This document shows, one piece after another, positions 14,189-61,016 of a stretch of 64,000 bases of DNA (positions are counted from its first letter, which is position 1; each line of letters starts with the position of its first letter). Origin of the DNA: Tateyamaria sp. ANG-S1 (GTDB lineage Bacteria; Pseudomonadota; Alphaproteobacteria; Rhodobacterales; Rhodobacteraceae); assembly GCF_000814025.1 (NCBI RefSeq), contig NZ_JWLL01000008.1, positions 1-64,000 of the forward strand, in the 5' to 3' direction. The notes below the pieces were generated by a model. The model did not search any database and was not told the origin of the DNA. It worked only from the letters and a program-made list of their open reading frames with translations. The translations under genes and the position numbers were made by a program.

Positions 14189-14219
14189 CGTGATCTCCCC
14201 GATTTATTTGTGTTGATGT

Positions 14220-15851: not shown

Positions 15852-16057
15852 GTAACGTTTCGCCGACGACGTCCCCCAGATGCCGCCAGCCGCCAGCCTG
15901 TTCACCGCTCTGCGCCGGTAACGCGCGTTTGCGGCGTTGGTATAGCGCGTGTCCCATGGCGTTCGGTCACTGAACACCTGACGGTCCACAGGCAAAGGCT
16001 GCGACTGGTTGCGTAACCTACAGTAGTGGTCAATCGGCGTTTGGGATAGACTAAACA

Positions 16058-45905: not shown

Positions 45906-45920
45906 TTAAGACCTCATTAA
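45906..45920 (+). promoter_or_regulatory. CtrA-type box upstream of small gene pair 1
   Basis: TTAAGACCTCATTAA is a perfect TTAA-N7-TTAA, the CtrA recognition pattern of alphaproteobacteria. It lies 45 bases before the ATG of the first small gene. An equally placed box precedes the second copy of the gene pair at 60666-60680. Confidence 0.6.
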
Positions 45921-45965
45921 GGAACTTAGTGCGGAATTTACCTATCGTTTATGGAGGTAAAAAAA

Positions 45966-46193
45966 ATGCCTACACAAGAATGGTTCGAAATGAGAGTGAT
46001 GCTGGCCGCTGAGCAAGCACGCAAAGCCGGATTTGAGCAAACCTACCTAGCCCTCGTTGACGTGCTTCGCTCTTCGAGGCTGAGCCATGAGCGCATGATA
46101 GGTCACCTCTCAACCAGCCAACCCCATGTGTCGCTGCATGGCCATACGAAGAAGCAAGACAGCCACACACGTTTCGGATTTACCGAACATTAA
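45966..46193 (+). CDS. Small protein A, copy 1 of a two-gene module
   Basis: 75 residues with a GGAGGT ribosome-binding site 8 bases upstream of the ATG at 45966. The core LAAEQARKAGFEQTYLALV matches VAADEARRHGYVHTYHALL of the gene at 60437-60622. It is soluble, mainly helical, and without any known domain. It is followed by small protein B and preceded by a CtrA-type box, the same arrangement as at 60.2-60.7 kb. Confidence 0.65.
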   Translation: MPTQEWFEMRVMLAAEQARKAGFEQTYLALVDVLRSSRLSHERMIGHLSTSQPHVSLHGHTKKQDSHTRFGFTEH

Positions 46194-46239
46194 CCGTGAC
46201 GCCTTCTGGTTGACTAGGGAGCAACCTGAGGATTCGTCA

Positions 46240-46500
46240 ATGCATGACCACGATTGGATTATTGAAGTTTGCAATGACTTGAAAGACTACGCAAGAAAAC
46301 ACCACCTGAACCACCTTGTGCCGGGTCTGGATAACGCCTTGAACGCAGCAAGGCATGACGTGTTGTTGCAATCCTCTAGGTCAGCCCATGAACCGATCAG
46401 GGACTGCGCAATCCTTGGTGGCTCCATAGGTCTCTGTCAGCACTCAAGAGAAGGCACAGATGATGCCGAAAAAGGTTTCACTGCTCGTCACCAATGGTAA
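46240..46500 (+). CDS. Small protein B, copy 1 of a two-gene module
   Basis: 86 residues from the ATG at 46240 with GAGG upstream. The N-terminal DWIIEVCNDLKDYARKHHL matches DWLIRFCQDLYTYAEENNL of the gene at 60174-60350. Helical, no known domain. The C-terminal 30 residues are not shared and may include read-through. Probably co-transcribed with protein A. Confidence 0.62.
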   Translation: MHDHDWIIEVCNDLKDYARKHHLNHLVPGLDNALNAARHDVLLQSSRSAHEPIRDCAILGGSIGLCQHSREGTDDAEKGFTARHQW

Positions 46501-46542
46501 GTGCCGAATAGTTCCTGCATACCGTTACACCGGGACTCGCTG

Positions 46543-47208
46543 CTAGAAGGCAAAACCATCCTGTTCAATCAACTCTGGGCCGTCATTATCTCGACCAAAC
46601 GGTTTTACATCGCGCACTGAAAACCTGTTTGTCCAACTCATGCCGTAGTTTGAAAGCACATGCGCATCATCATCCGACTGCTCTAGCCAACCGGTCACTT
46701 GCGCGCTGTCCAGAATTACGGGCATGCGGTGGTGGACCTGCTCTATTTCAGGCTCCGCCGGGCGCGTGATGATTGAACATGTTTCGGTTCCATCTCGCAG
46801 TACAGAGTGCACGCCTGCGAAAAAGAAGACGGGCGCGTTTTGCTCGACTGTGATGAAGTGAGGCCGTTTCCTTCCTTTTGATCCCGTCCACTCGTAGTAA
46901 CCCGACGCTGGAATGATGCACCGCCCAGCCTTCCATGCTATCCGAAAGGTTGGTTTCTCTGCCGCAGTCTCAATCCGCGCGTTGAACGTGGTCTGCTTCC
47001 AGTCTTTCACATCGCCCTTGTGCCAATGCGGGACGAACCACCAGCGGGCCGTAGAAGCGACCGGAGCGCCATCTCGCATAGTGACGCAAGCAACATCCTG
47101 CGTCGGCTTGATATTGTAGCTGACGCGCGTTTCCGTCGGTCTGAGGATCGATAGAAACTCGTGGTACTCGTACCAGCTTAAAGTGCTAAGAATGAAGCGA
47201 CCGCACAC
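46543..47208 (-). CDS. SRAP/YedK-family abasic-site DNA-protein crosslink protein
   Basis: 221 residues beginning MCGRF, so Cys2 is the catalytic residue after Met removal. Further active-site motifs: SYNIKPTQDVACV (Asn), IIPASGYYEWTG (Glu) and VHHRMPVIL (His). Such proteins (HMCES/YedK) cap abasic sites in single-stranded DNA and are often SOS-linked. Length is normal. Stands alone. Confidence 0.93.
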   Translation of the reverse strand: MCGRFILSTLSWYEYHEFLSILRPTETRVSYNIKPTQDVACVTMRDGAPVASTARWWFVPHWHKGDVKDWKQTTFNARIETAAEKPTFRIAWKAGRCIIPASGYYEWTGSKGRKRPHFITVEQNAPVFFFAGVHSVLRDGTETCSIITRPAEPEIEQVHHRMPVILDSAQVTGWLEQSDDDAHVLSNYGMSWTNRFSVRDVKPFGRDNDGPELIEQDGFAF

Positions 47209-47613
47209 TAGCAGCGATCCAGTTTGTTAGGGTTGAAATTCATTGGTCAAAATCGGTTTCAGGACTTCGTTGGAAGTCTGCGCTTACTTGCTGGAAACGG
47301 TCAAGTATGGGCTGGGCTAGTCAACAAACACGGGTAATGGCTGCGTTGAGTGCACCGCAGAAGTCTTCGATAAATTAGCATACTTACTCATCGCAGAACC
47401 CGCTGGGCGTGCTCGGTTGCAGAAGCTGCTATGGGTTGGCGAAGCTAGTCGCTAGTTACTGCCGCAGCACAGATGGTTTAGTTGCCTCACAAGCGGAGCG
47501 ACCCTACTTTAGAGTACGCCCATGGGCACAACCAAGAATAAAACACCCTGATCATAGCTACTCGAAAGACACTTTGCCTGCCAAGATTTCGAAACCTCAT
47601 GAGGTAGTATCTA
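47209..47613. other. Intergenic, nothing firm
   Basis: About 400 AT-richer bases between divergent genes. One frame (47409-47639) overlaps the next gene's start and looks random. No terminator or known operator was seen; it must hold the promoters of both flanking genes. Confidence 0.4.
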
Positions 47614-49281
47614 ATGCCAATTTCAGCTGGAATAGATGAAACCGATATAGAGCATTACATTGCGCAGGTGGAAGCTTCGTCGGTGCTTGGCAGAAGTAAG
47701 CGTCGAGCGCGTCTTCTCTCGCATCTAATTCGGTCCGAGTACCTTGAGCAGGGCGATAGGTTGAAAGCCTATTCCATTGGTCTTGATATTTTTGGAAAAC
47801 CTACCGAGTTTGACCCGGCGGCAGACAGCGTTGTTCGTGTTGAGATGGGTCGCTTACGCTCTGCACTTGCTCTATTTGAAGCAAGCGAGTTCAACGACAC
47901 TAGAATAATTGTCGATATTCCGGTTGGTACGTATCGCCCAACCATCGAACTGCGTGAACCCGTGGCAGAAGACATAAGCTCAGATGCCGTAGAAGAGCGA
48001 GCATTAGTCTACACAAAAATACGGCTATTTGCACGCTACCTAGTCATTCCAGTTCTGGCGGTGATGGCAGTAATGCTTGTACTATGGCAGTCCTTATGGC
48101 CACCTGGGGAAGCTCAAACGATTGGGATTCAAGTCAGTGTCACTGACACAACTGACAAGCTAGCAATCGAGGCGAAATCATCACTGATAAGGGCGCTTTC
48201 ACGAACGACGACCTTCAGTTTACTAGAGCCTAAAACACCAAATGAGTTAGCAACCGGAGCTAGCTTCAAGGTTGCCATATCAACTTCGAATTTAGACGAG
48301 ATGTTCGCTGTCTCCATCGAGTTGGTAGATTTATCATCGGATCGTTTACTCTGGAGCAGCAAACTTAGCGCAGAGACACAAGCTCTGTTGATATCGGATG
48401 TTGAGACCCGATCCGCAAGTGAGCTGCGTGTCCGCCTGTTTGGCGCTTCAAAAGAAATCCTTGAGGGACTGGATCCTGAAGACCTATCCCCTGAGGCTCT
48501 ATTTGTTCTAGCCACTTGGGTGCCAGGAGTAGCGCGGTCTGCAATCGAGTGGGAGCTCATGCGCGTTCACTACGCACGGCTCGCGTTATCAAAAGATCCA
48601 GATTTTGGGGCTGCACATTCGGTGCTTGCTGACAAACTTGGCTATCTTGCGAATGTTTACGAGCCTTCAGACAATCAGGAAACATACGCAGCCGCTTTGT
48701 TTCACTCCCAACGCGCGATGGAACTCTCACCACTCGATCCCGACGTTGTATTTAACGTGGCTCAGTCCCATTGGCACTTCGGTCGGCTTTCGCAGAGTAG
48801 AAACGCTATGGCTCGCGTATTGGAGCTTGACCCAAGGCATGATCTGGCTCGTTTCCTGCACTTGGTTATCCCGTACACATGTGCAGTTGCCCCACAACAG
48901 ATACTGGCCGAAGCAATTGACTTTGATCAGACACTATCTGCTGACAATCCACTTCGGTGGATGACCTTAACCTGGATCGGCTGGCTGCATATGTTTCGCG
49001 AAGAATGGTCTGAAGCTTTGGCCGCAGAGGAGGCTGCGGCACTCATTTTCGAAACCCCGTATACCTTCATGCGCAGAGCAGCAATTCTTAACCAATTGGA
49101 TCGTCGTGGAGATGCAATAGACGTCATCAATCGGCAATCTGATAACTGGAATGGGTTCGACCCGAGGCACTATGCTCGCTCAGTGGTTCCGCGTTTGTGC
49201 AGCGAATCGAGCCGACCGGAGAGGTTCATTCAGTACTACTCAGATTTGTCTGATGCAATCGACGGACGAATAAATAATTGA
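47614..49281 (+). CDS. Membrane-anchored winged-helix/TPR regulator-like protein
   Basis: 555 residues; GAGGTAG precedes the ATG. Residues 20-115 (RRARLLSHLIRSEYLEQGDR; AYSIGLDIFGKPTEFDPAAD; VRVEMGRLRSALALFEAS; IIVDIPVGTYRPTI) form the DNA-binding-like module seen ahead of TolB/TPR domains in adenylate-cyclase-type proteins. A membrane helix at about 142-165 (LVIPVLAVMAVMLVLW) is followed by a periplasmic TolB-like part and TPR-like repeats (ALFHSQRAMELSPLDPDVVF). A ToxR/CadC-like one-component sensor is likely; no obvious targets are adjacent. Confidence 0.75.
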   Translation: MPISAGIDETDIEHYIAQVEASSVLGRSKRRARLLSHLIRSEYLEQGDRLKAYSIGLDIFGKPTEFDPAADSVVRVEMGRLRSALALFEASEFNDTRIIVDIPVGTYRPTIELREPVAEDISSDAVEERALVYTKIRLFARYLVIPVLAVMAVMLVLWQSLWPPGEAQTIGIQVSVTDTTDKLAIEAKSSLIRALSRTTTFSLLEPKTPNELATGASFKVAISTSNLDEMFAVSIELVDLSSDRLLWSSKLSAETQALLISDVETRSASELRVRLFGASKEILEGLDPEDLSPEALFVLATWVPGVARSAIEWELMRVHYARLALSKDPDFGAAHSVLADKLGYLANVYEPSDNQETYAAALFHSQRAMELSPLDPDVVFNVAQSHWHFGRLSQSRNAMARVLELDPRHDLARFLHLVIPYTCAVAPQQILAEAIDFDQTLSADNPLRWMTLTWIGWLHMFREEWSEALAAEEAAALIFETPYTFMRRAAILNQLDRRGDAIDVINRQSDNWNGFDPRHYARSVVPRLCSESSRPERFIQYYSDLSDAIDGRINN

Positions 49282-49393
49282 TATATAAAGATTTTCTGAA
49301 GTGTAACCTGTGACAAACCTTTGAAACCTGTTCGTTTTTAACTGTGTCGCCCATGAGGTGGTCCACACGCAGGCTAATCGAAAGGTTGCTTCT

Positions 49394-49681
49394 ATGGACA
49401 GCGACGCAAGCAGAGCGCAGCTCGACGACGAGGGTACCGATTTCACTCCCGAAGAACTGGCGGTCTTTGCCGAAGTCAGGGTCTGGATAAACACTCTGTG
49501 CTCGGCTCCAAATCCTGTTGGCACCCACCGCCTCTTGCTTGGGACCGCGAGTGAATTGATCGATGCGGCTGCCGACCTCGCGGCGACCCGAGCACCGGGA
49601 GTGCAGGTCGTACAACTGGGGCTTTTGGCGGAACGGGTCGCCCAACTAGCTTGCGCCTCAACTGAAAAAGACCGCGACTGA
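49394..49681 (+). CDS. Hypothetical small protein, first gene of CtrA-like operon
   Basis: 95 residues from the ATG at 49394 (MDSDASRAQLDDEGTDFTPE). Acidic N-terminus, then helices. No family recognised. It lies 31 bases before the receiver-like gene on the same strand and probably belongs to the same operon. Confidence 0.55.
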   Translation: MDSDASRAQLDDEGTDFTPEELAVFAEVRVWINTLCSAPNPVGTHRLLLGTASELIDAAADLAATRAPGVQVVQLGLLAERVAQLACASTEKDRD

Positions 49682-49712
49682 CACCAGCTCGTCGCACCAT
49701 ATGGAGTTAAAA

Positions 49713-50123
49713 ATGAGACCGACGTACCGAGGTGACCCGGCTCAAGGGATCCTTGTAGTTTCCTGTGTGCCTGTTGTGGCGGACGCCATAATGCGAATGG
49801 CGGAAGACTATAGCTTTTCTAAGAACGCAACAGATGCCGAAACCTTGTTTGCGAGAAACACGTTCGACTGCGTCGTCACGATTGTCGATCCCTCCAATGA
49901 AGACAGCTTCAAACAGTTAAGACGGGTCGTGAACGCGGCAAGGAACGGTGGTGTCCCCGTGGTGACAACCGCTGAATTCAATCCCGACTGGATCGACAAT
50001 CTGGTGTCTCAGTTTGGGTCAACAGCTCACTTTCGGGAGTTTCCAACGACGGCGCAGTTGGATGAGTTTACTCGATCATTCAGTGCAGAGCGCCGGGCTG
50101 CAATGGAAAGGACATCGATATGA
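49713..50123 (+). CDS. Receiver-like (degenerate) small protein
   Basis: 136 residues from the ATG at 49713; the ATGGAG at 49701 supplies its GGAG ribosome-binding site. The order of strands GILVVSCVPVVADAIMRM, FDCVVTIVDPSNEDSF, GVPVVTTAEF and TAHFREFPTTAQLDEF resembles a CheY-like receiver without the usual acidic pocket; a candidate Asp is in IVDPSN. The stop overlaps the next ATG. A stand-alone pseudo-receiver is my interpretation. Confidence 0.5.
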   Translation: MRPTYRGDPAQGILVVSCVPVVADAIMRMAEDYSFSKNATDAETLFARNTFDCVVTIVDPSNEDSFKQLRRVVNAARNGGVPVVTTAEFNPDWIDNLVSQFGSTAHFREFPTTAQLDEFTRSFSAERRAAMERTSI

Positions 50124-50359
50124 ATTGCGACAATGTCGTGCCATTTCCCCCAAAGGGCACGCCGCCTTCTTCGGTGTGGACCCTTTTTGTGCTGGCAGAC
50201 CTTCGCCAATTCTTTGTGACCGAAGGGCCCCCAAAAGCAGTAAGTGTCATCGAAGATGCGATACAAGAGTTGGAGAAGGTTCTTATCCCAGAAAGCTGCG
50301 ATCAGTCTGCGGCTGAACTGAGCGCAAGTATTGCATGGGAAGGAGAAACATCTTCATGA
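50120..50359 (+). CDS. Small helical protein of the CtrA-like operon
   Basis: 79 residues, overlapping both neighbours in ATGA fashion. The central helix LADLRQFFVTEGPPKAVSVI, then EDAIQELEKVL faintly recalls protein B of the small gene pairs (D-L-x-x-[FY] and an A-L/I-x-x-A/E pattern). No family recognised. Confidence 0.5.
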   Translation: MNCDNVVPFPPKGTPPSSVWTLFVLADLRQFFVTEGPPKAVSVIEDAIQELEKVLIPESCDQSAAELSASIAWEGETSS

Positions 50360-51054
50360 ACGTCTTGTTTGTAGGACCAGACGAGCTCTTTTCGCGTGTG
50401 GTTAGCCAAGCGGTTGGCCAGGATTGGGAGTTACACAGAGCACAGAGTGTGAACGATATGCTGGACTATCAAGGTACGCACTGCTTTCACGCCGCTTTGT
50501 TTGGAATGTGCGATAACGCGTTGAAAATGGCGCATGCAGCACGCGTCGCGAAGAACGAACTGAGTACGCCTATTACTATCGGCCTTGTACCTCGCAGCTT
50601 AGCTGATGGTTCCGCAAGTTCAGTCGCAGCTTATACCGATGCATTCATAGTCGACTGTGGGGATGATCGGCTCGCTAAGCTGCAGTGCGATGCAATACTG
50701 CGTATCGCGAACGGGCTGATCGCTCAAAACGTTACTTGCGGTGACGTCACATTCCACACCTCCGGCAATGCTTTTTCCGTAAATGGTGAATTGCTAAACC
50801 TAACGCGACGGCAATATCAGGTTCTTGAGCTTCTGTTCCTGGGGGCTGGCAAAACGATCACTGCAGACATGGTCTTTAACCACATCTACGGTTGGCAAGA
50901 TACACCCAGCACCAAGGTGATCGATGTATGGGTTTGTCAACTTAGGCGAAAGCTGCGCGAGGCGGGATCAACATCAAACTGCATTCAAACAGTTTGGGGC
51001 GAGGGTTACGCATTGCGAGTACAATCGATCAGCGGTAAGCCTAAGGCAGCATAG
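50356..51054 (+). CDS. CtrA-like response regulator with degenerate receiver
   Basis: 232 residues from the ATG at 50356, with AGGAG just upstream inside the preceding gene. The C-terminal half is very like CtrA: LNLTRRQYQVLELLFLGAGK, NHIYGWQDTPSTKVIDVWVC, QLRRKL and IQTVWGEGYALR. The N-terminal half has the receiver layout (MNVLFVGPDELFSRVVSQAV), but the strand that should end in the phospho-acceptor Asp reads FHAALFGMCDN, with none, and the acidic pair after strand 1 is reduced. It probably acts without phosphorylation and may bind CtrA-type boxes such as those at 45906 and 60666. Strong terminator downstream. Confidence 0.75.
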   Translation: MNVLFVGPDELFSRVVSQAVGQDWELHRAQSVNDMLDYQGTHCFHAALFGMCDNALKMAHAARVAKNELSTPITIGLVPRSLADGSASSVAAYTDAFIVDCGDDRLAKLQCDAILRIANGLIAQNVTCGDVTFHTSGNAFSVNGELLNLTRRQYQVLELLFLGAGKTITADMVFNHIYGWQDTPSTKVIDVWVCQLRRKLREAGSTSNCIQTVWGEGYALRVQSISGKPKAA

Positions 51055-51235
51055 CTGAAACCCAATTGCCGCTTAAAAGGAATTTCTCAGCACTAGTGTC
51101 ACGAACTATGGTGCACTGCCGCAATCGAACGGTTCTCAGAATTTGAAAGCTCGAGTTATGACTGACAGTTGTTCGTGTCAAAATGCTCAGAACATTACAT
51201 CGCACGTATTTTTAACGGCTTCTGAACAACAGTGT

Positions 51236-51275
51236 AACAGGTCTGATCGTGTTGATCAGACCTGTTTAGTTTTTG
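51236..51275 (+). terminator. Rho-independent terminator
   Basis: A perfect 13-bp stem (AACAGGTCTGATC / GATCAGACCTGTT) with a GTGTT loop is followed by TAGTTTTT. It lies about 180 bases after the CtrA-like gene and ends that operon. Confidence 0.85.
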
Positions 51276-51327
51276 GCTTCGGAGGTTTGATAGGTTTATT
51301 GGGCGACTGCCACCGCCGGGTATTACG

Positions 51328-51552
51328 CTATGGCACAATCGAAAACACAGAGTTAATCATCGGATGTTTCTCATGGAGTTCGTCTGCCACGAGCGGTGAT
51401 CGACTGATCACCTGTTCAGACGGTTCGAACTCACCGTCACTTTCCTGGGAAACATCTACAAAATACCGGCTTGTTTCAGGCAGCGCGCCATATCGATACA
51501 CGTAGTCTGCGAGCAAACACTCTAAACGTACAATCTTCTCTTGGTCTGTCAT
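51328..51552 (-). CDS. Hypothetical small protein
   Basis: 74 residues (MTDQEKIVRLECLLADYVYR...), acidic, with a helical N-terminus. The composition is convincingly coding, but no family is recognised and the ribosome-binding site is weak. It converges on the terminator of the CtrA-like operon. Confidence 0.45.
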   Translation of the reverse strand: MTDQEKIVRLECLLADYVYRYGALPETSRYFVDVSQESDGEFEPSEQVISRSPLVADELHEKHPMINSVFSIVP

Positions 51553-51860
51553 GTGCTACTCGACTCAGCAAAATTAGCAGACAACTACCAAGAGACAACT
51601 GCGAGAAAAACTGACTAAAAATTCAAGGTTTCGATGACAGGATCGAACACTGATGGGTGATTTCTGTACCCTTGATGGTCAACTCACCTCCTCCGATTAG
51701 CCAGAAATCCTGCGAGCCCGTAGCCCAGCTATCGCAATCGATATCTACTGCTAAGCCAATCCATCGTTCCTTAGCGCAACACTTGGTCCGCGAGCGGTGT
51801 CATCGGCATCAAGGAACTGGATGCCTTGGGCTTCGAGGATTTATCGAACCGGGCGCCCAG
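51553..51860. other. Intergenic, nothing recognised
   Basis: About 300 bases between the small ORF and the IS110 fragment. No credible frame or signal was seen. Confidence 0.35.
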
Positions 51861-52244
51861 TCATTGACTATCAGTCTTCACAGGTAAGCCGCGCACTTCG
51901 TTGGCCAGATCAATGGTTTTGCTCAACAAGGCCTTGCGCGTACTCAGTAGAGCCCGAACCCCGTGTGCCTCCCGGCTTTTCATATGAACGGGGCTGGACC
52001 AACCGGTCCGCAGGATCTGGGCAATGCTGCATGCGTGGTTCCGATCCGTCTTGTTGCGCATCGCTGACAAGGCAGCATTGACCTGGCGCGCCTCCAAGCA
52101 GACGACGTCAAATCCTTCGGCCTTCAAACCGTAGAACAGATGCTGGCTCAACGTGCCCGATTCAAAGCCAACGCGCTCGATCGGAAAGCGAAGCGCAATC
52201 AGATACCTGCTGATGTCCCGTGTTCTGCTAAAGGCTCTCGGCAC
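51861..52244 (-). pseudogene. IS110-family transposase, internal fragment
   Basis: Residues RVGFESGTLSQHLFYGLKAE, then GFDVVCLEARQVNAALSAMR and the ILRTGWSSPVHMKSREAHGV region through LANEVRGL, are the DEDD-domain part of IS110 transposases. The first 40 or so residues and everything after VRGL are missing. The left junction falls in the 3' end of the ParB-like gene. The missing N-terminus is similar to the piece at 59610, which may derive from the same element. Confidence 0.82.
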
Positions 52245-53256
52245 TCTCGGGCTTGGCGGCTTTCTGTGGATCAGTCTCGACCTGCCAGAGAGATGATCCC
52301 GCCATCATATGCGCAGCTACAAGACGCAGAGCAATGCCACTGTTGTCCAGAAGATCAGCCCGGACAGCCGCGTGACGATGCAGATCAACGTAGTTCTGAG
52401 CCGCCTTGGTCAGTTCGGGCTTGGGTGCGGCGGTGGTGCGCTGTGCAGCCTTCTCGCGCCGCTTGGCTTCCGCGTTGGTGATGTAACCTTTGTGGAAGGT
52501 GACCTCTCCTTGCGTGGTGGTTGTGATGAACACTTTTCCGCCGTCTGCTTTGGATGCTTTGCGATGATCCCACGTGGCAAACCATGCGCCTTGCTCCATG
52601 ACAATCACATCTGCCCAGCCCTCGGCTTTGAGGTCTTCGACAGCATGTGCGATGGCTGCGTTCTGCTGCGACCAAAACGCCTCCGCATCGGCAAAATACA
52701 CCTCATCACCAAAGAGATCGGACACGATGGCAAGTCCAGACGCGTCCACATCAAAGAGCGCGTTGGTGACAGGGATATGTGCCCCACCAAAGAGCCAGTC
52801 TTTCAGGTGCTGGCCTGTGGGCACATAGGCGTTCTCGTCCTTCACCAATGCCCACCATGCTTTTTGCTGCTTGGGGGTCGCCATGGTCAGAACGCGGATG
52901 TCGCGGGCATGGATGTCGCCTTTGCGATAGGCTGTGAGGATGGGCCCATAGAGCCGCCCCAACGCCAGCCGCTGCGACACCATGCGTTCGGTGATCCCGA
53001 AGGTAGCGGCAATGTCCGCTGGCTCCCGCCCCTCTTTGACCAGCTTGGCAAAGGCTTTGTACTGATCCACCTCGTCCATGGGCAGGCGTTCGATGTTTTC
53101 CGCCAATGAGGCTTCAATTGCAGTTGCATCATCGCCCTCCACCATGATCAGGCACGGCAGCGGGTCAATGTCGCCATCCCCGATAAAGATTTGGAAGCGG
53201 CGGCACAGCCGCCTCAATAGATGCGTCAGGGGGCAATGCCCGCAGGGCGGAAACAA
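52228..53256 (-). pseudogene. ParB-like plasmid partition protein, truncated at both ends
   Basis: The family part starts near 53200 (RRFQIFIGDGDIDPLPCLIM), preceded by unrelated sequence. The helical core IEASLAENIERLPMDEVDQY, then ADIAATFGITERMVSQRLAL, is the ParB/Spo0J DNA-binding helix-turn-helix. A long C-terminal region follows, ending SLWQVETDPQKAAKPE before an abrupt stop at the IS110 fragment. The N-terminal CTPase domain is therefore missing. It belonged to a plasmid or integrative element, like the H-NS-like gene beside it. Confidence 0.7.
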
Positions 53257-53422
53257 GCGCAGCGCAGGTTCCGTTCACGCGCACCCGGCCCGCAAGGGAG
53301 ACGCCCAACTCTCACTGGATACCAAATGAACGCCTATATTGGCCGAGTGACCTGACACGAAATCAGAGTTGAGGCTTTGATCATCGCGCACTAGGGAGCC
53401 CAAAGACGAGAAGGAAGACAAC

Positions 53423-53743
53423 ATGACAGAGATCAATTGGGATGCGCTTTCGCTGGATGAGCTGAAAGACATTCAGAAGAAGGCCACCAAAGCCATCGAC
53501 AGCTACAAAGCGCGCAAAAAGAAAGAAGCGCTCGCCGCAGCTCAAGCTGCCGCTGCCGAACTGGGCTTTTCACTGGGTGAACTGACGGGCGATGCCAAAT
53601 CCAAAGGCACGAAGTCCGCACCAAAATACTGCCACCCTGAAAATCCTGCCAAAACTTGGACTGGCAAGGGTCGCCAACCCAATTGGGTAAAGGACGCTCT
53701 CGCCAACGGCAAGTCATTGGAAGACCTGCTGATCGCAAAGTAA
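53423..53743 (+). CDS. H-NS-family nucleoid protein
   Basis: 106 residues. The N-terminal oligomerisation helix (LDELKDIQKKATKAIDSYKA) and the C-terminal DNA-binding motif YCHPENPAKTWTGKGRQPNW are typical of H-NS/MvaT-like proteins of alphaproteobacteria. It would silence AT-rich foreign DNA. Such genes are common on plasmids. Good terminator after it. Confidence 0.9.
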   Translation: MTEINWDALSLDELKDIQKKATKAIDSYKARKKKEALAAAQAAAAELGFSLGELTGDAKSKGTKSAPKYCHPENPAKTWTGKGRQPNWVKDALANGKSLEDLLIAK

Positions 53744-53767
53744 ACTCACCCAAAAACCTAAAAGAAA

Positions 53768-53797
53768 AGAGGCGTGCCTCTCAGCACGCCTCTTTCC
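53768..53797. terminator. Rho-independent terminator, possibly bidirectional
   Basis: AGAGGCGTGC and GCACGCCTCT form a perfect 10-bp stem with a CTCTCA loop, followed by TTCCC on the plus strand and preceded by an A-run that would serve the minus strand. It separates the H-NS-like gene from the convergent small gene. Confidence 0.85.
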
Positions 53798-53817
53798 CAC
53801 ACGCAGTTACGCAAACG

Positions 53818-54078
53818 CTAGGCGGGGCCATCCGTAGATGGCTCTACAACCTCATTGTTTGGCTGCTGATCGTCTTTGACGGTGCGCAGAACCAAGCGCC
53901 CGTCGACGGGTAAGGCATCCATGCGCACCTCATAGCCTTCCCCATCCTTGTGTGCCCAGGCGGCCGCAATCTTGCTCCAAACAGATTTTTGGCCATCACC
54001 AATTGGCGTGACGGTATAGCCCAACAAGAATGGCTTGTTGTTGACGGGTTTGGTTGCTGATCTGTGTTCGTTACTCAT
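53818..54078 (-). CDS. Hypothetical plasmid-type protein
   Basis: 86 residues from the ATG at 54078 (an ATG two codons earlier is also possible). FLLGYTVTPIGDGQKSVWSK and IAAAWAHKDGEGYEVRMDAL resemble small proteins found on mobilisable elements in alphaproteobacteria (from memory, unverified). Together with the ParB-like and H-NS-like genes it looks like plasmid backbone. Confidence 0.6.
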   Translation of the reverse strand: MSNEHRSATKPVNNKPFLLGYTVTPIGDGQKSVWSKIAAAWAHKDGEGYEVRMDALPVDGRLVLRTVKDDQQPNNEVVEPSTDGPA

Positions 54079-54374
54079 AAACATACTCCTTACTCAAAAC
54101 GTTGAACGAATGAGAACATATAAAGAACAAACAGCAGCGCGAGCGCAAGAAAATTCAGCAAAAACATACGGGTGTATGTAGCGAACGCCAACGCGGAGGG
54201 CGGGAACCGGACCTGCGCTGCAGCTGCACACAGTTCAAGCTCAGCAGTGGAAGCTGCCACTCACTTCGCGCTCTAAATGACATTTTCTGGCAATTTCCCA
54301 AACAACTTGCCCGTAGATGCAAAGCGGTCAGTGGACAAGCATGACGCAAGCTATTGTTTGCGTGCTTAGTGCAA

Positions 54375-55574
54375 CTAACGCTGGTCTTTTGTCGACTTTG
54401 CGTTCGGGCAGGCAACCGTGTGCGCGCAAGCTGCGGCAAGCAGACTGGCCACAAAAATCGCTCCAACGGAAACCCGCATATCGACATCGACAAGCGCCGT
54501 GACCATCAGGATACCACCCAGCCGCGCCGCGCTAATATCAATGCTGGTCGCAAGGGCCTCAAGGCCAGTGGGGGAAAACCGCAACACCATTTGTGTCGAC
54601 GGTGAATTGCTGCAGGCTAGCCCAAATCCGACCAGACACGCTGACAGCATCAGAAGAAGGATTTCCGTGCTAAAAGCAAGTAACAAGCCGACTGAGATCA
54701 GTATTGGCGCAGACACCATGATGAGCCGAAGGCGATGGTTGTCGACCAGGTTGCGCAGCAGCGCGCTCAGGATGGAAAAGGACAGCCAGAGTGCAGACAG
54801 GACCAAGCCTACGCTAGCTGTGTCCTTGCCGCTTTCAACCAGCAACAGCGGGACACGAAACAGAAAATATGTAATCGCTCCATAGGTCGCAAAGACATAT
54901 GCGAACGTTAACCACAGCTTCTTTGACCTGAAAATTGCGGTGTAGTCTGTTGAGGTTTTTGCCGAAGGTGTTGCTTTGCCGGTCCTTTGTGACAGAGTGA
55001 CTAAAATTAAGGACAGACCCGCGACAAATGCGATGAACAGAAATGCCAAGTTCCAATTCGCTTCGGTCAGGAGTGTCCCATAAGCCAAAGGTGCAAAGGC
55101 TGCGATGTATCCCGCGGTGCTGCCCCACAAAATGAGCGTCCGACCGGGTTTGCGCGGCGCGGCTTGTGTCAGAAGCACCGGTATCAAGGGCGAAAACATT
55201 CCTGCGCCCAGACCTTGGCAGACCCGACCAATGATCAACGTAGAATTATCGGTCGCTGCATAAATGAAGACCGACCCCGCCAGAAACAGCACGACGCCCA
55301 AGGCGAAAACCTGTGACGAATTGAACCTATCCCCCCCTATCGCGCAGGCGACAATACCCGCAGCCATCGCGATGCTGTAAGCATTGAAAACCAAGGCTAT
55401 TTCCAAGAGCGAAAGCCCAAGATCCGCCTGGATAGATGGCAACAGCACCGGCACCAGGGTAAGTTCCATGACGAACGCGATCTGAGCCGAAACAGGCCCC
55501 AGAATAGCGATGCGAGTCGCCACCTTTGCTGTATCGTCGGTCGCGAGCACTGCTTTTGATGAAGAAACGGACAC
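54375..55574 (-). CDS. MFS transporter
   Basis: 399 residues from a GTG start, 9 bases after the upstream stop. Twelve or so hydrophobic helices; DHA1-like features include the loop after helix 2 (GGDRFNSSQVF) and GRVCQGLGAGMFSPLIPVLL in helix 4. Probably a drug/proton antiporter-type exporter; substrate unknown. It is coupled to the unknown gene upstream, which may make or modify the exported compound. Confidence 0.88.
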   Translation of the reverse strand: MSVSSSKAVLATDDTAKVATRIAILGPVSAQIAFVMELTLVPVLLPSIQADLGLSLLEIALVFNAYSIAMAAGIVACAIGGDRFNSSQVFALGVVLFLAGSVFIYAATDNSTLIIGRVCQGLGAGMFSPLIPVLLTQAAPRKPGRTLILWGSTAGYIAAFAPLAYGTLLTEANWNLAFLFIAFVAGLSLILVTLSQRTGKATPSAKTSTDYTAIFRSKKLWLTFAYVFATYGAITYFLFRVPLLLVESGKDTASVGLVLSALWLSFSILSALLRNLVDNHRLRLIMVSAPILISVGLLLAFSTEILLLMLSACLVGFGLACSNSPSTQMVLRFSPTGLEALATSIDISAARLGGILMVTALVDVDMRVSVGAIFVASLLAAACAHTVACPNAKSTKDQR

Positions 55575-55583
55575 GTATGTGCT

Positions 55584-56372
55584 TCAGGCGTTCACTGCGG
55601 CATCGACCACACTAAGATCTTGTTCTGGTGTGGTCGCATCGCTTGTAGAGACAGAAGGGGTTCGAGCGCTGACCTTGGGCGGCGTTTCCTCAATCAGTGC
55701 AGCCATGTCATCAGCACTCATCCAGATCAGGTGGTCTTCGTCGGTAATCTGTTGATCTGGTCCAATCCAGCGTCCAGGCTCGCAGTGAATGTATCCGTAG
55801 CGCAGGTGCGCGCCCTTTGCCGCCAGGGATTTGGGAACCAAAGCGAACATATAGGACGGGTTCCATGTCAACGCGGCGATTTCAAGGAGTAAGCGCGACA
55901 GCACGGCCGTGGCACCGTGGCTGCGCGGTCCGGCCAGCCCCTTTGAACGAAGCCAGAAATCACCGTGATATCCCACTCTCCCAGTGATCGCGGTGAGTGC
56001 GCGCGGGCCTGTAAACGATGTCTTGTCAGGGTCGGGGGTGGAATCTGGAGTGATGTATTTGTGCCGGTGCAGCGTCAGGTGTTCAGCAAGCGATAGACCC
56101 TGTAGGTTCAACAGGCGGATTGCTTGCGTATGGATCAGGTCTCCGCCCGGATCGTACCCGCAGATCCAAAAACCATTCGTGTGGTCGATATACGAGCTTT
56201 GCACGTCGAACATCGGATAGACCGGGCTGCGATCGGGCTGCTGCGCGCGGTGGCGGCGATATTCCAGGAAATCATCACCCAGCACCACGTGAATTCCAGC
56301 TTCCTCAAGCTCTCTAAGTACATCAGCGAAGCGCGTTATTGTTCGAAATAGTCGGTTCGGTCCGATGCACAT
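55584..56372 (-). CDS. Hypothetical protein paired with an MFS exporter
   Basis: 262 residues with a strong GGGGGAAGGA ribosome-binding site. Soluble. The pattern YIDHTNGFWICGYDPGGDLI, HTQAIRLL, then a later YMFALVPKSLAAKGAHLRYG loosely recalls acyltransferases of the GNAT fold, but I cannot place it in a family. The last 40 residues are Ser/Thr/Pro-rich and probably disordered. It forms a two-gene operon with the MFS transporter. Confidence 0.6.
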   Translation of the reverse strand: MCIGPNRLFRTITRFADVLRELEEAGIHVVLGDDFLEYRRHRAQQPDRSPVYPMFDVQSSYIDHTNGFWICGYDPGGDLIHTQAIRLLNLQGLSLAEHLTLHRHKYITPDSTPDPDKTSFTGPRALTAITGRVGYHGDFWLRSKGLAGPRSHGATAVLSRLLLEIAALTWNPSYMFALVPKSLAAKGAHLRYGYIHCEPGRWIGPDQQITDEDHLIWMSADDMAALIEETPPKVSARTPSVSTSDATTPEQDLSVVDAAVNA

Positions 56373-56811
56373 GTTCCTTCCCCCTCAGCAACTCAGCGAA
56401 AGCAGACGCCACTTCTTTTTAGTCATCGATTGGTTAATGAAGTATTGCTTTGAGCACGCTGACCAATCGGTTGGCAAAGGTATGCGGTCCAAGGAGGTAT
56501 TTTTTCCTCAAGTTCGCCACATCTCACATTTCTGGCCCACCAATGGGCCGGGTACTTCTGGCTGTCGCTCATCGAACCGTACCTAAAAAGACACCGTTCG
56601 GTAACGCCCGCCAAGACCGCCAATCATCACAACAGACCGTTCCCTCAGTTGAGCAAACTGACTTTGGGTCAATAGCTTTTCGGTGACTTACGCTTGCAAC
56701 AAACCCGGACACCAAATCCGTTTCCTTGCCCTGTCGACCCCTAAAATTTGACGGAATTTTCAGTGTCCGTTGCCCTATTTCTGCCCAGAAAACATTGGAA
56801 GCAAGACCCAC
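56373..56811. other. Intergenic, nothing recognised
   Basis: About 440 AT-rich bases. Small overlapping frames exist on both strands but look random. It must carry the promoter of the operon to the left. Confidence 0.4.
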
Positions 56812-57093
56812 ATGAGTGGGTGCGGCATGACTTCCAAAAACGATATAAACCGGTTTACACAAATCTCTTTTCCGCCATCCGGTGCGGTGAACGCTCTCAA
56901 GGGCACCCCAGTTGAAGGGCCAGGCGGCAGATGGGTGCCTTGCGCAACCGCACTGGAAAGCGGTGCCTTCATTGCGTGTCTTTATGAGGTTGGCGCCGGA
57001 CGGCGGCAGGTCTGCGGAGATGCGACCCCTAGGGCATCCGAGACGGAAGCGTTGACGCGGGCTGTTGATCTCGCGGTCATCGCCGCAGCATAG
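56812..57093 (+). CDS. Hypothetical small protein
   Basis: 93 residues from the ATG at 56812; an alternative start is 56827 (MTSKNDINRFTQISFPPSGA). Gly/Ala-rich, with three or four Cys. Composition and length are consistent with a real gene; no family recognised. It converges on the GGDEF-EAL gene. Confidence 0.45.
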   Translation: MSGCGMTSKNDINRFTQISFPPSGAVNALKGTPVEGPGGRWVPCATALESGAFIACLYEVGAGRRQVCGDATPRASETEALTRAVDLAVIAAA

Positions 57094-57132
57094 CCGTTCA
57101 TCGTGGCATCGTTAACTACGCGCGCAAACTAA

Positions 57133-59001
57133 CTAGCTCGCTTTCTCACTATACTCCTCCTCCTGACTTGCCCCATAGGACCGGGCGCGCGGCCAGAGCA
57201 GCCCATCTGTCGCGCACAACAAAGCTTTCAGATCTTCTGCGCTCATGGGGCGTCCAAAGAAGTAACCTTGCAGATAATCGCACCCGAGCGCGCTGACCAC
57301 GCGCGCATGGTCTTCGGTCTCGATGCCCTCGGCAACGATCCGCATCCCAAGACTTTTGCCAATTCCGACAATCGAAGAAACTAACCGTTGTTTGGTAACA
57401 TCATCCACAATCGGCTGAATGAAAGATCGGTCGATTTTCAGAATGGATGGCTTAATCTCAAGCAAACCGCTGACAGATGCATGACCGGTACCAAAATCAT
57501 CAAGAGCGATTGTAACGCCGATCTCATCAAGTTCGTCGATTGTCCAGCGTACGAGGTCGCCAAGCCGGTCCAGATACACGGATTCAAGGATTTCGATTGT
57601 AAGCCGATTGGGCGCAATCCCCGAACTTCGAATGTCATGGATGAAAGTTGGGTCCATCAAGCGCGCCGCAGAGACATTGATGGCTACCCGTGGCAGCAAC
57701 ACATCCGCTTCGTCAAAAACTGCTATGGCCAATTTCAGTTTCTCAAAGACGATCTTATCGACCTGCTTGAGGATTCCCACGTTTTCGGCGCTATCAAGGA
57801 ATTCAACAGGTGGCAGGATGCCTCGTGTTGGATGTGCCCACCTGACCAATGTTTCTGCCGAGGCCACCTCCCCCGTTCGTGCATCAACAAGCGGTTGAAA
57901 ATAAGGGATAAACTCTTGCCTCTCGCAGGCGAGGAAGAGGTCAGATGCAAGCCGTTTCGTTGCAATCGACTGTGCGTGCATCTGCTCGGTGAAAAATGAC
58001 CACCGCCCTTTGCCCTGTGCTTTGGCATGGTAAAGCGCTTCATCTGCATACGCCACGATGCGTTCGGGATCTTTTGTATTCGCGTTGGCAATGGCCACAC
58101 CGATGCTGGTGCTGCACGAAGTAGATTTGCCATCGCAAAAAAATGGAGCCTGCATTCTTTGAACTATGTCATCTGCAAGGCCGCTGATCGCCAACGCACT
58201 TGAACTCAACGACCGCAAAATTGCGAACTCGTCTCCGCCCAGCCGGGCCACCAGATCAGCATCGTCGGTGAGTTCTCGCAGAATATCTGCGACGGTCACT
58301 AGCAGATTGTCGCCCGCCTCATGGCCAAGCGTGTCGTTGACGAATTTGAACCGATCCAGATCGATGTAGAGGACGGCAAATTCCCGACCTTCTTCCTTGA
58401 GCCTGTTGATCCAAGTCTTGACCTCAACCTCAAAGTGTCGGCGGTTGGACAGCCCCGTCAATGCGTCTTCGTTGGCATCTTTGGCAACTGACTGTGCCAG
58501 TTTGTGCAAACGCGCGTTCTCAAGTTCAAGCGAATGGACTTTCGACAGGATACTGGTGCCATCCTCTACATGCGACACCGCTTCACTTTTGTGTTGTTCG
58601 CGCGGCGATCCCTGCCTCCGGTCTCCAAGATCAATGATCGAACACAGCCACCACCGATCTCCCGTAGTGGGGTCAGTCAAATGACTCCAACTCATTCGTT
58701 GAAAGTAGGTTTCGCCACCTTTGCGATTGTTAACGGCCTCGGTCTGGAAGTTCTCCCAGTTCATCAGTTTCTCAATAATGAACAGGTGAACACCATGTTC
58801 CAGGTCGGCCCCGATGAGGATGGTTCCACGCTGCCCCAACGCTTCATTTGCACTATAGCCAGTGACTTTGGTGAACGGCTTGTTGCACCATTTGAGTTCC
58901 ATAATCGCCCCATCATCTGGCGATGCCAGTGCCAGAGCGAGACCCTCGGTACACCGGTCACTAATTTGATTGAGGATTTCTGCAGGTACCATCGAACACA
59001 C
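57133..59001 (-). CDS. PAS-GGDEF-EAL cyclic-di-GMP protein
   Basis: 622 residues. An N-terminal PAS domain (WCNKPFTKVTGYSANEALGQ) is followed by a coiled coil near residues 145-175. The GGDEF domain (DALTGLSNRRHFEVEV; ARLGGDEFAIL) has the intact active site. The EAL domain has ETL in place of EAL (ASAETLVRW), but keeps the other catalytic residues (INVSAARL, IEILES, ALDDFGTGHAS, LKIDRSF, AEGIET, QGYFFGRP). It may make or break c-di-GMP. No membrane helix, so a cytoplasmic sensor. Confidence 0.93.
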   Translation of the reverse strand: MCSMVPAEILNQISDRCTEGLALALASPDDGAIMELKWCNKPFTKVTGYSANEALGQRGTILIGADLEHGVHLFIIEKLMNWENFQTEAVNNRKGGETYFQRMSWSHLTDPTTGDRWWLCSIIDLGDRRQGSPREQHKSEAVSHVEDGTSILSKVHSLELENARLHKLAQSVAKDANEDALTGLSNRRHFEVEVKTWINRLKEEGREFAVLYIDLDRFKFVNDTLGHEAGDNLLVTVADILRELTDDADLVARLGGDEFAILRSLSSSALAISGLADDIVQRMQAPFFCDGKSTSCSTSIGVAIANANTKDPERIVAYADEALYHAKAQGKGRWSFFTEQMHAQSIATKRLASDLFLACERQEFIPYFQPLVDARTGEVASAETLVRWAHPTRGILPPVEFLDSAENVGILKQVDKIVFEKLKLAIAVFDEADVLLPRVAINVSAARLMDPTFIHDIRSSGIAPNRLTIEILESVYLDRLGDLVRWTIDELDEIGVTIALDDFGTGHASVSGLLEIKPSILKIDRSFIQPIVDDVTKQRLVSSIVGIGKSLGMRIVAEGIETEDHARVVSALGCDYLQGYFFGRPMSAEDLKALLCATDGLLWPRARSYGASQEEEYSEKAS

Positions 59002-59174
59002 TTGTTGTTGCTGTGCCGGGGAACCTTAACGAATGCCAAGTTCGAAACGGTTAAACAGCGTGGTGTTCAGACGCCTATTTGGCTAAAAATTGAAACGCTT
59101 TTCGAATGCGTCACGCAGACCTTTGATTGGCGGTGCTGGTTGCGCACAATGAGCGACATCGGCTGGAATGCAGC

Positions 59175-59531
59175 TTAGTTCCACTTTCCGATACCGCAAC
59201 GGGGTGAATTCCGGGTAACCTGCGCAAAGTCCAGGTGCTGGACAGTGTAGTCCGTGACCGCACTCTCGCCTCTAAATGAGAATGTCTGATCACTGTTGGG
59301 ATCATCTGCCTGAGTTCGGTGCAAATCGTCATCAACGGTGTCAGTGATTTCCAAGGTGTTCTTTGAGAGAATGAGGCTCTGCGCGTCTGAAAAGTAGTAG
59401 CTGCCGTCGACTTCCTGGGCGTGAATGGACAGACAGGCATTCGGGCGCTCCGCGTTGGACACTCCGCGGTTGAAATCGATTTTGATTAAGGGCTGGTTAC
59501 GATACCCAGCATATTCTTCAGCCCTAAGCAT
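59175..59531 (-). CDS. Hypothetical protein, possibly truncated by an IS end
   Basis: 118 residues beginning MLRAEEYAGYRNQPLIKIDF. Polar and acidic, beta-rich, no family recognised. Its start lies right at the presumed left end of the IS110 remnant (about 59535), so the original N-terminus may be lost. Confidence 0.4.
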   Translation of the reverse strand: MLRAEEYAGYRNQPLIKIDFNRGVSNAERPNACLSIHAQEVDGSYYFSDAQSLILSKNTLEITDTVDDDLHRTQADDPNSDQTFSFRGESAVTDYTVQHLDFAQVTRNSPRCGIGKWN

Positions 59532-59609
59532 GCGTAATTGGGCTGATCCTGAACAAAGGTCGAGCTCCCGGTAGGCTCACAGGGAAACTGTGAACAACGG
59601 AGATTTCGA

Positions 59610-60251
59610 ATGGAGTATTATGCTGGCTTGGATGTATCGCTGTGGTCTTGCGCGATCTGTGTTGTCGATGGCAAAGGCACGGTTCTGCATGAGCGGGGCC
59701 TGCCGTGCGGGATCGAAGAAATCGCGGATTGCTTGGCGGAAGGCACTAGCATTCAGACGAATTCGGGTGCGGCACCCGTTCAGGACATCCGCAGCGGCGA
59801 TTTTGTCCAGACAAAGGACAATGGTCTCAAAGAGGTACTATGGGTAGGAAAACGGCACATACACCGCGCAGAGCTCCTTCGCTTTCACCAACTGCGGCCA
59901 GTGCTCATTCGACCAGGTTTCTTCGGGGATCACGGACCGTTGCTCTTGTCGCAACAGCATAGAGTTCTGGTAGCGAGTGATCAGCTGGGGCTTTCGTTAA
60001 GCTGTAGGGAGGCCTTCATAAAGGCAAAGCATCTCGCCGAATACGTCCCAAAAGCCGCTCGGGTCGCAAACGGCAAAACGCACGTTTCCTACTGTCACAT
60101 TTTGTTGGAAAGCCATGAAGTTCTGTTTTCCGGTGGCATTGATTCCGAAAGCATGCTTCGAGGAGCAATGGCTCTAAAGGGCATGCCGAGGAGAGTTCAC
60201 CAGCCGTTTCAGTCGCGTAGCGCCCTCTGTTTCTCGAGTTGCCACTTCTAG
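59610..60251 (+). CDS. Chimera: IS110 transposase N-terminus fused to a Hint domain
   Basis: 213 residues in one frame. Residues 1-45 (MEYYAGLDVSLWSCAICVVD, GKGTVLHERGLPCGIEEIAD) are the start of an IS110 transposase, with its typical leader upstream. From about residue 44 it becomes a Hint/hedgehog-intein-like domain: CLAEGTSIQTNSGAAPVQDI, GDFVQTKDNG, VLWVGKRHIH, LRPVLIRPGFFGDHGP and SQQHRVLVAS, with the Cys of C-x3-GT at the join. Its end overlaps the antisense small gene at 60174, so the C-terminus is probably altered too. Likely a by-product of recombination; expression is possible from the IS promoter. Confidence 0.72.
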   Translation: MEYYAGLDVSLWSCAICVVDGKGTVLHERGLPCGIEEIADCLAEGTSIQTNSGAAPVQDIRSGDFVQTKDNGLKEVLWVGKRHIHRAELLRFHQLRPVLIRPGFFGDHGPLLLSQQHRVLVASDQLGLSLSCREAFIKAKHLAEYVPKAARVANGKTHVSYCHILLESHEVLFSGGIDSESMLRGAMALKGMPRRVHQPFQSRSALCFSSCHF

Positions 60252-60350
60252 TGCATGTTCGGCAGCTGTGTTCACGTGTCTCAGGTTGTTCTCTTCCGCG
60301 TAGGTATAAAGGTCTTGGCAAAAACGAATAAGCCAGTCGTCGTCGTTCAT
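60174..60350 (-). CDS. Small protein B, copy 2 of a two-gene module
   Basis: 58 residues from the ATG at 60350 (GGGGA upstream). DWLIRFCQDLYTYAEENNL matches DWIIEVCNDLKDYARKHHL of copy 1, and AAEHALEVATRETEGATRL continues the helical pattern. A near CtrA-type site (TTAA-N7-TCAA at about 60400) lies upstream. No known domain. Confidence 0.65.
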   Translation of the reverse strand: MNDDDWLIRFCQDLYTYAEENNLRHVNTAAEHALEVATRETEGATRLKRLVNSPRHAL

Positions 60351-60436
60351 AACCGTCCCCGTCAAATCACTTCCAAACCCAACGATTGGACGCAATTGGT
60401 TAACAGAACTTCAACTCGGCTGGGCTTGTGGATGGT

Positions 60437-60622
60437 TCAGTGAATAACTTCGCTAAGCCTAACACGTTGCGGGACATTCAACGGTAAAAGTGTTTGATCG
60501 GAAGTATCTCGCAGTGCTTGCAGAACCTCTAGCAGGGCGTGGTACGTGTGCACGTAACCATGCCTACGGGCTTCATCAGCAGCGACCAGTACTTTCCACT
60601 TTAGGTCTTTGCCGTTGTTCAT
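60437..60622 (-). CDS. Small protein A, copy 2 of a two-gene module
   Basis: 61 residues. VAADEARRHGYVHTYHALL matches LAAEQARKAGFEQTYLALV of copy 1 (45966-46193). Same order A-B and similar upstream box distance (43 bases). Helical, no known domain. The second copy lies about 14 kb away in opposite orientation. Confidence 0.65.
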   Translation of the reverse strand: MNNGKDLKWKVLVAADEARRHGYVHTYHALLEVLQALRDTSDQTLLPLNVPQRVRLSEVIH

Positions 60623-60665
60623 AGTTAACCCTCACCAACGATGGGTTACGTGTGGTTCGCAGAAT

Positions 60666-60680
60666 TTAACAATCAGTTAA
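60666..60680 (-). promoter_or_regulatory. CtrA-type box upstream of small gene pair 2
   Basis: TTAACAATCAGTTAA is a perfect TTAA-N7-TTAA followed by C, matching the full TTAA-N7-TTAAC consensus. It lies 43 bases before the start of protein A copy 2; the first copy has its box at 45 bases. Confidence 0.65.
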
Positions 60681-61016
60681 CAAAAATCCGATTGAACCCT
60701 AGATATGCAAAATGCAGCTTATACTATCGATTTAGTAGGCGCACATCTGCTCCTGCGCTACATATGGGATGACGATTGCACACAATCTCTCCCGCTAGGT
60801 TAACGTTATGTCTAAATGTTGAGACACTCTTGCGTCCAGGTTGTCATTCAAATTGACCAATCCGTTAACGATTTTGGCTTTGCACCGCGACCATAGTTGG
60901 AACAACGAGCTCGACTCAACTCTACTTATACGATTATTCTACCCCAGGTGGCGCTTCCAAAACCTAAACGCAAAAAAGCGTGACCGAACACAGTGTTTAG
61001 AAAAGAGAGACGCGTT
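60681..61016. other. Upstream region of the RTX gene
   Basis: About 335 AT-rich bases with several single TTAAC half-sites (for example near 60799 and 60873) but no second complete CtrA-type box. The RTX promoter should lie here. No coding frame is credible. Confidence 0.4.

Follow-up and report, generated by a model that had tools for sequence, protein, structure and literature searches.

Paired microprotein genes behind CtrA-type boxes in Tateyamaria sp. ANG-S1 and their relatives at the ccr-luxRI locus

The first 64,000 nucleotides (nt) of contig NZ_JWLL01000008.1 of Tateyamaria sp. ANG-S1 (Rhodobacteraceae), referred to here as the window, contain two modules in which a gene A is followed by a gene B. 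Both genes encode microproteins, and each module is preceded by a perfect TTAA-N7-TTAA sequence, the pattern recognized by the regulator CtrA. Sequence comparison identifies B as a branch of a family-wide microprotein with a core copy (B0) in front of luxRI, and not as an orphan, a relationship that the initial annotation of this DNA missed. We tentatively favour the explanation that each A-B pair is an accessory operon, A-B(-C), carried on an island and built on B, and that these operons would tune the circuit of quorum sensing and CtrA by mimicking B0. The contig that holds the window is called C31, and C23 is another contig of the same genome (G000). The term box denotes a perfect TTAA-N7-TTAA sequence unless stated otherwise.

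The B family and its core copy between ccr and luxR

The profile of the B family was built from alignment A1, the 20 rows of which include all four module B proteins of the genome, and it matches 214 of 295 evenly drawn Rhodobacteraceae genomes (E ≤ 0.05). The matches to the four module B proteins themselves, with E values of 7.5e-24, 1.9e-18, 4.7e-24, and 3.3e-22, are not independent, since all four are among the rows of the profile. A module B protein alone finds B0 of the same genome (E 0.0035), and single-sequence searches with module B identified relatives in 46 of 148 genomes and matches in 17 of the 19 other genomes of the genus. The B0 gene of this genome (matched at C23:701578-701697) is located between ccr, which encodes crotonyl-CoA carboxylase/reductase (615 bits to NCBIfam TIGR01751), and a gene for a LuxR-type protein, which is followed by a LuxI-type gene.

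For the comparison of core copies, the best 80 loci were kept of 363 stretches encoding relatives in the named collection. All 80 have ccr upstream and luxR downstream on the same strand, and 75 have luxI. A perfect box is positioned 34–38 nt before the start of B0 in 79 of them, and the box of the exception (L105), apparently the same locus as L214 of the second set described below, contains one mismatch. Just two other boxes occur in the 641,557 base pairs (bp) of these loci. In 71 of the 80 loci, luxR overlaps B0, with a luxR ATG 53–65 nt inside the B0 gene, an arrangement that would suit translationally coupled partners. The overlap may be the reason why the tail of B0 is poorly conserved.

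A second set of 58 loci was composed of the best-scoring loci and those of multi-copy genomes, and partly overlaps the first. It can be divided into 51 loci with an adjacent luxR, five loci with ccr and B0 but without luxR, and two loci elsewhere. The box is present in 41 of the 51 loci of the first kind and in none of the five of the second (Fisher p 0.0008). A LuxR protein with at least 55% identity occurs in all five genomes chosen for their B0-luxRI arrangement and in none of 20 genomes lacking a B match.

The putative promoter region of B0 is also conserved. An extended -10-like element, TG-N-TA-N3-T (TGcTAtrGT), ends 4 nt before the box in 75 of the 79 boxed B0 loci, and at that position it is found in none of the 61 other box-strand cases of this genome. 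Of the 295 genomes, 73 have a single copy of the long pattern combining the -10 element with the box, and its reversed control occurs once in all 295 together. The 73 genomes comprise 62 comparable genomes with listed B positions, in all of which the pattern, inspected by eye, is just upstream of B; ten that are not comparable; and G394, which has no B match.

It is doubtful, in our view, that the B family serves a ccr-linked task in ethylmalonyl-CoA metabolism, or another task independent of quorum sensing, with luxRI inserted behind B0 later. The box would then belong to luxRI, and the modules would place a paralogue under CtrA timing. Such a history agrees with ccr being the most constant neighbour of B0 (80 of 80 loci), with five genomes that keep ccr-B0 with neither an adjacent luxR nor a box, and with the association of the box at B0 loci with luxRI and not with B0 alone. 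However, the accessory modules keep the box, yet tblastn found neither luxR nor ccr on C31 or on the module contig of genome G007 (other flanks were read in part). The overlap of B0 and luxR kept in 71 of 80 loci, and the absence of a LuxR protein with at least 55% identity from 20 of 20 genomes that have no B match, also speak against this reading.

The A and B frames are very likely real proteins, and the module cores appear to be under purifying selection: their nonsynonymous divergence (dN) is 0.13–0.46, against a synonymous divergence (dS) that exceeds 1 or could not be calculated. For the 20 listed pairs of B0, dN is 0.02–0.27 and dS at least 0.41 or not computable; a dS returned as -1 was read as saturation. 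B0 and A are predicted to form helical hairpins with confident cores. The model of B0 contains helices H4-19 and H23-54, with 37 of 68 residues reaching a predicted local distance difference test score (pLDDT) of at least 90, whereas that of A contains helices H3-21 and H24-43, with 27 of 61 residues at that level, and both have disordered tails. The coherent helical models and the dN and dS values make it hardly credible that the frames encode no proteins and merely accompany a leader RNA with a regulatory role, to which the shortness of the frames and the overlap of luxR with the tail of B0 could otherwise point.

Searches of Pfam, NCBIfam, and PHROGs yielded weak matches only (best E 0.023), none of them convincing for the B family. 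PDB sequences likewise provided no convincing match (best E 0.051 and 0.95), and no match to PDB folds was better than E 1.2. The models of A and B share the hairpin with a turn at about residues 20–23, a fold too simple to argue from, and distant homology of A and B to each other was rejected (hhalign probability 3.9% and 1.5%). Two single frames possibly contain two consecutive B-type repeats each (L248:2182-2505 in G081 and L245:3303-3626 in G187); both halves match the B profile in G081, and the second half of the G187 frame was recognized only by eye.

Recurrence of A-B modules and boxes

The A-B pairs of the window are located at 45966-46500 (+) and 60622-60174 (-), and the gaps between the boxes and the ATG codons of A are 45 and 43 nt, all as given by the initial annotation (Table 1). 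The proposed relatedness of the two pairs holds in single comparisons, with 33% identity over 46 amino acids (aa) between A1 and A2 (E 1e-8) and 37% over 41 aa between B1 and B2 (E 2e-9). Furthermore, a third A copy, from C23, finds A1 and A2 with E values of 2.0e-20 and 3.1e-5. The description of the module as duplicated requires revision, as the genome contains four A-B modules. The third is intact, boxed, and located near 436 kilobases (kb) on C23, and the fourth, near 66.7 kb on C31, has neither a box nor the start of A. B1 and B2 belong to different groups of the B tree, each together with members from other species; judged from this weak tree, which rests on 48 residues, they look like old paralogues rather than products of a recent duplication. 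The window contains two boxes only, and dinucleotide shuffles had a mean of 0.11 boxes, with two in none of 100.

Table 1. Coordinates of modules 1 and 2 and of selected genes between them in the window
Feature	Position	Strand	Remark
Box of module 1, TTAAGACCTCATTAA	45906..45920	+	60 nt (start to start) upstream of A1
A1, 75 aa, class I A protein	45966..46193	+	
B1, 86 aa, accessory B-family microprotein	46240..46500	+	
Putative remnant of gene C, 28 aa	46460..46546	+	compared by eye with intact C
555-aa protein with a weak TPR match (under the Pfam cut-off)	47614..49281	+	36% relative also precedes the CtrA paralogue in G007
79-aa open reading frame (ORF) overlapping the start of the CtrA paralogue frame; tentative distant B-like	50120..50359	+	hidden Markov model E 0.21 and 0.43, 2016 ORFs
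CtrA paralogue, degenerate receiver, CtrA-like DNA-binding domain	50335..51054, likely start 50356	+	between the modules
GGDEF-EAL protein, PAS match below cut-off	57133..59001	-	neighbour of module 2
B2, 58 aa, accessory B-family microprotein	60174..60350	-	
A2, 61 aa, class II A protein, predicted two-helix hairpin	60437..60622	-	
Box of module 2, TTAACTGATTGTTAA	60666..60680	-	58 nt (start to start) upstream of A2

In other genomes, where the initial annotation had suggested a search, A-B pairs recur and the box accompanies them. Tateyamaria has eight modules in four genomes (G000, G018, G007, and G014). In all six modules with an intact 5' end (three from G000 and one each from G018, G007, and G014), A is preceded by a perfect box at a distance of 58 or 60 nt, and the two boxless modules (near 66 kb on C31 of G000 and near 21 kb in G018) are both without the start of A. 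The same four genomes contained the A matches of a single-sequence search of 244 genomes (best E ≤ 2.3e-5). A profile search of 394 evenly drawn genomes of the family identified A in G401, from another genus (E 4e-7), where the A-B pair is preceded by a box at a distance of 61 nt from A. The next-best match of the single-sequence search (G218, E 0.0011) is located within a 380-aa frame. Weak A matches with E values of 0.001–0.1 in other genomes, among them G218, G313, G050, and G078, are short or part of longer frames and were attributed to chance.

Outside Tateyamaria, accessory B genes were surveyed in 20 stretches from 16 multi-copy genomes, and a box precedes a B-type or A gene in four of the stretches (G401, G187 twice, and G407). 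G187, from another genus, has two pairs of B-type genes, each preceded by a box, and one single boxed B-type gene, and G407 has a single B-type gene behind a box. On plasmids, no A was found and B occurs once (Octadecabacter), and pattern scans of viral contigs with one A protein and with A1 gave no match. In three modules, B is followed by a third gene, C, the product of which has 41, 48, or 50 aa and one membrane helix as judged by eye.

The gene content near some modules could indicate that A and B are a toxin-antitoxin or another selfish or defence pair on mobile islands, as there is an integrase in G018, a GmrSD_N gene on C23, and a TIR gene in G014. We consider this very unlikely, because A1, B1, A2, and B2 match no toxin or antitoxin family in Pfam and NCBIfam, the core gene to which B is paralogous is mostly present as a single copy, and three modules contain the third gene.

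Several short sequences and one neighbouring gene were recorded at the modules. Inspection by eye shows TTAACC, which resembles a CtrA half-site, in the interval separating A from B in several modules, in the window at 60398-60403 (-). In two class II modules (window 60721-60737 and L054:742-758), the conserved sequence TACTAAATNGATAGTAT precedes the box by about 40 nt, and among the fetched loci it occurs in G000 and G014 only. A frame with a Hint_2 domain (E 1.9e-39; window 59610-60251) is convergent with module 2 and overlaps the end of B2; a short N-terminal stretch of this frame resembles the start of a transposase by eye.

CtrA sites of the genome and the C31 island

The genome encodes its own CtrA (L289:1588-2373), which matches NF045991 with 433 bits against a cut-off of 350. 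The 4.43 megabases of the genome contain 34 boxes, and a reversed control pattern occurs 40 times. Thus, the concern in the initial annotation that the box might be equally common elsewhere applies to the raw count, which is not above background, but not to the placement before A or B0. Four of the 34 boxes are located 22–45 nt before a module A or B0, where about 0.0003 would be expected per gene in a 45-nt slot. The other 30 boxes include one about 0.4 kb upstream of ctrA itself, one 164 nt before an rpoH-type gene, and one before a divL-like gene (resemblance by eye; no NCBIfam match). A crude rule based on the longest frame flagged ten of the 30 as being inside long open frames, and the motif alone is therefore no proof of CtrA control. 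It is from the box that we infer control of the A-B modules by CtrA. A 172-aa frame with the repeated motifs ELFSTSSAP and EMFSTSSAP, perhaps a peptide precursor, begins 255 nt after another perfect box (L288:1474-1992).

The gene content of C31 departs from the core between about 44 and 81 kb, as judged by eye, and this island contains three modules. It also encodes a GGDEF-EAL protein, RTX proteins, an orphan LuxI, and the CtrA paralogue. The orphan LuxI (C31:67872-68516, L295:3872-4513) matches Pfam Autoind_synth (E 3.2e-20), is 53% identical to the core LuxI, and is encoded about 0.6 kb downstream of the fourth, 5'-incomplete module, which has the order A-B-C. A module of G007 is found on a 27.5-kb contig that also encodes proteins related to the orphan LuxI (67%), to the CtrA paralogue (47%), to the 555-aa protein (36%), and to the GGDEF-EAL protein (30%), as well as a type I secretion pair. 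A hybrid histidine kinase (HisKA, HATPase_c, and receiver) is encoded there too; together with two small proteins, the first of which weakly matches a receiver, it is located at L309:13037-13969 and 14150-16000 of the G007 island. The possibility that C31 is a plasmid was rejected, since genes outside 44–81 kb look chromosomal by eye and RepC (PF03428) is found on contig C5 only.

In its DNA-binding part, the CtrA paralogue shares 43% identity over 109 aa with the CtrA of this genome, and the region that we take to form the CtrA recognition helix is conserved in it. It does not reach the cut-off of NF045991 (102.7 bits against 350). The receivers of both paralogues read LFGM or LFGL where CtrA has LLDLDLPD, at what is presumably the position of the acceptor aspartate, so that the paralogue receiver appears to be without a phospho-acceptor aspartate. 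The score of the B-like 79-aa ORF that overlaps the start of the paralogue frame was reached by 3 of 20,000 shuffles, but the ORF was picked among 2016, and no comparable B-like ORF was seen directly before the G007 paralogue.

The position of the paralogue gene between both modules, its 47% identical relative on the contig of the G007 module, and the 43% identity of its DNA-binding domain to that of CtrA would be in keeping with modules that answer to the paralogue in a separate circuit with the orphan LuxI, leaving the host CtrA uninvolved. Among 23 genomes searched, however, the paralogue is limited to G000 and G007 and thus is no part of every module: the boxed modules of G018, G014, and G401 occur in its absence. 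Moreover, the box is shared by B0 genes throughout the family. A circuit governed by the paralogue is therefore unlikely.

A proposed circuit and known systems

The initial annotation assigned no function to the A-B pairs. The anatomy described above is solid, and our hypothesis of function narrows the role of the pairs to the circuit of quorum sensing and CtrA. In the first step, phosphorylated CtrA (CtrA~P) would activate A-B(-C) by binding to the full box, at a distance of about 42 bp ahead of the start point. A proposed -10-like hexamer 23–28 nt after the box of the A-B modules would place the box at about -49 to -35, the position of an activator. In the second step, B, as a paralogue of B0, would bind or compete for the signalling partner of B0 in the role of an anti-activator or adaptor, and A may be a partner or modifier of B. 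The most likely signalling partner would be the LuxR-type receiver, the gene of which overlaps B0, and because of this overlap LuxR is the first candidate. As an outcome, the module would feed CtrA activity back onto quorum sensing. At B0, in contrast, the box covers the predicted start point behind the extended -10 element. According to the text of PMC6180460, activating CtrA sites are found near -35 and repressing half-sites over -10. If the extended -10 element is the promoter, the B0 RNA would begin within the first TTAA, a position that by this rule is unsuited to activation and suggests that CtrA would repress B0.

Several observations weigh against the proposed role of the modules. The proposed -10 element of the A-B modules (A as the second and T as the last base) fits five of seven modules by eye and was chosen post hoc. 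The perfect box is missing from 10 of the 51 luxR-adjacent loci of the second set and from 16 of the 20 accessory B stretches from the multi-copy genomes outside Tateyamaria. The five sampled genomes that keep B0 beside ccr without an adjacent luxR indicate that the job of B0 is not LuxR alone, and G058 has a luxR (47–48% identity) directly after ccr with neither a box nor a B match. Helical hairpins are, in addition, common folds. Finally, expression data in the published texts show no repression: Dinoroseobacter shibae needs CtrA for luxR2I2, whereas luxR1/luxI1 is unchanged in its mutants (PMC4046655), and pgaRI1 of Phaeobacter inhibens is unchanged in ctrA, cckA, and chpT mutants (PMC11974857). 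These operons may or may not carry B0. The text of a 2026 preprint calls the host luxI/luxR of P. inhibens a simple two-gene operon (PMC13345283).

A broader scheme can be drawn in which CtrA represses B0-luxRI through the start-point box yet activates the A-B modules as decoys of B0, and in which the islands carry a near-complete parallel circuit of orphan LuxI, phosphorylation-blind CtrA paralogue, GGDEF-EAL protein, and A-B. Taken as a whole, this scheme is improbable.

The A-B pairs may link growth control to cell-to-cell signalling. The published picture of the wiring between CtrA and quorum sensing in roseobacters is mixed, and the published CtrA sites looked scattered. The perfect box before a microprotein gene that leads into luxR, and overlaps it in most of the best loci, is a reason to look again, and the accessory A-B modules together with the island CtrA paralogue would provide natural variants of the same wiring.

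TraM, QslA, and QteE are small anti-activators of LuxR-type proteins, and TraM is helical. The B family shares with them that it is a small protein tied to a LuxR system, and the binding or inhibition of a LuxR-type protein by B is putative. No anti-activator family was matched by the 20 rows of alignment A1 in Pfam (TraM included; E ≤ 0.5) or by A1, B1, A2, and B2 in NCBIfam. No mention of B0 or the A-B modules was found in the examined passages, figures and supplements aside, of PMC4046655, PMC11974857, PMC3824088, PMC6473078, PMC11655674, PMC6180460, or PMC13345283.

The A-B modules have the same TTAA-N7-TTAA sequence as the CtrA full-site promoters of Caulobacter and of Rhodobacter sphaeroides fla2 described in the text of PMC6180460, and their box would similarly be positioned near -35. 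The box of B0 differs from these CtrA-activated promoters in its location over the predicted start point. The gene order at B0 resembles that of the 'B topology' luxRI loci of Cude and Buchan (2013, PMC3824088), in which ccr also precedes luxRI and which, with 24 genomes, were the most prevalent kind in that study; the examined passages name no small gene between ccr and luxR, and Figure 2 of that study uses the label CHP. CtrA boxes before luxRI were likewise reported for roseobacter quorum-sensing genes in the text of Wang et al. (2014, PMC4046655). Here, the site is found before 79 of 80 ccr-B0-luxR loci, which are close relatives of the query, and before 41 of 51 loci of the second set, and a microprotein gene, without mention in the examined passages of that work, is located between the site and luxR.

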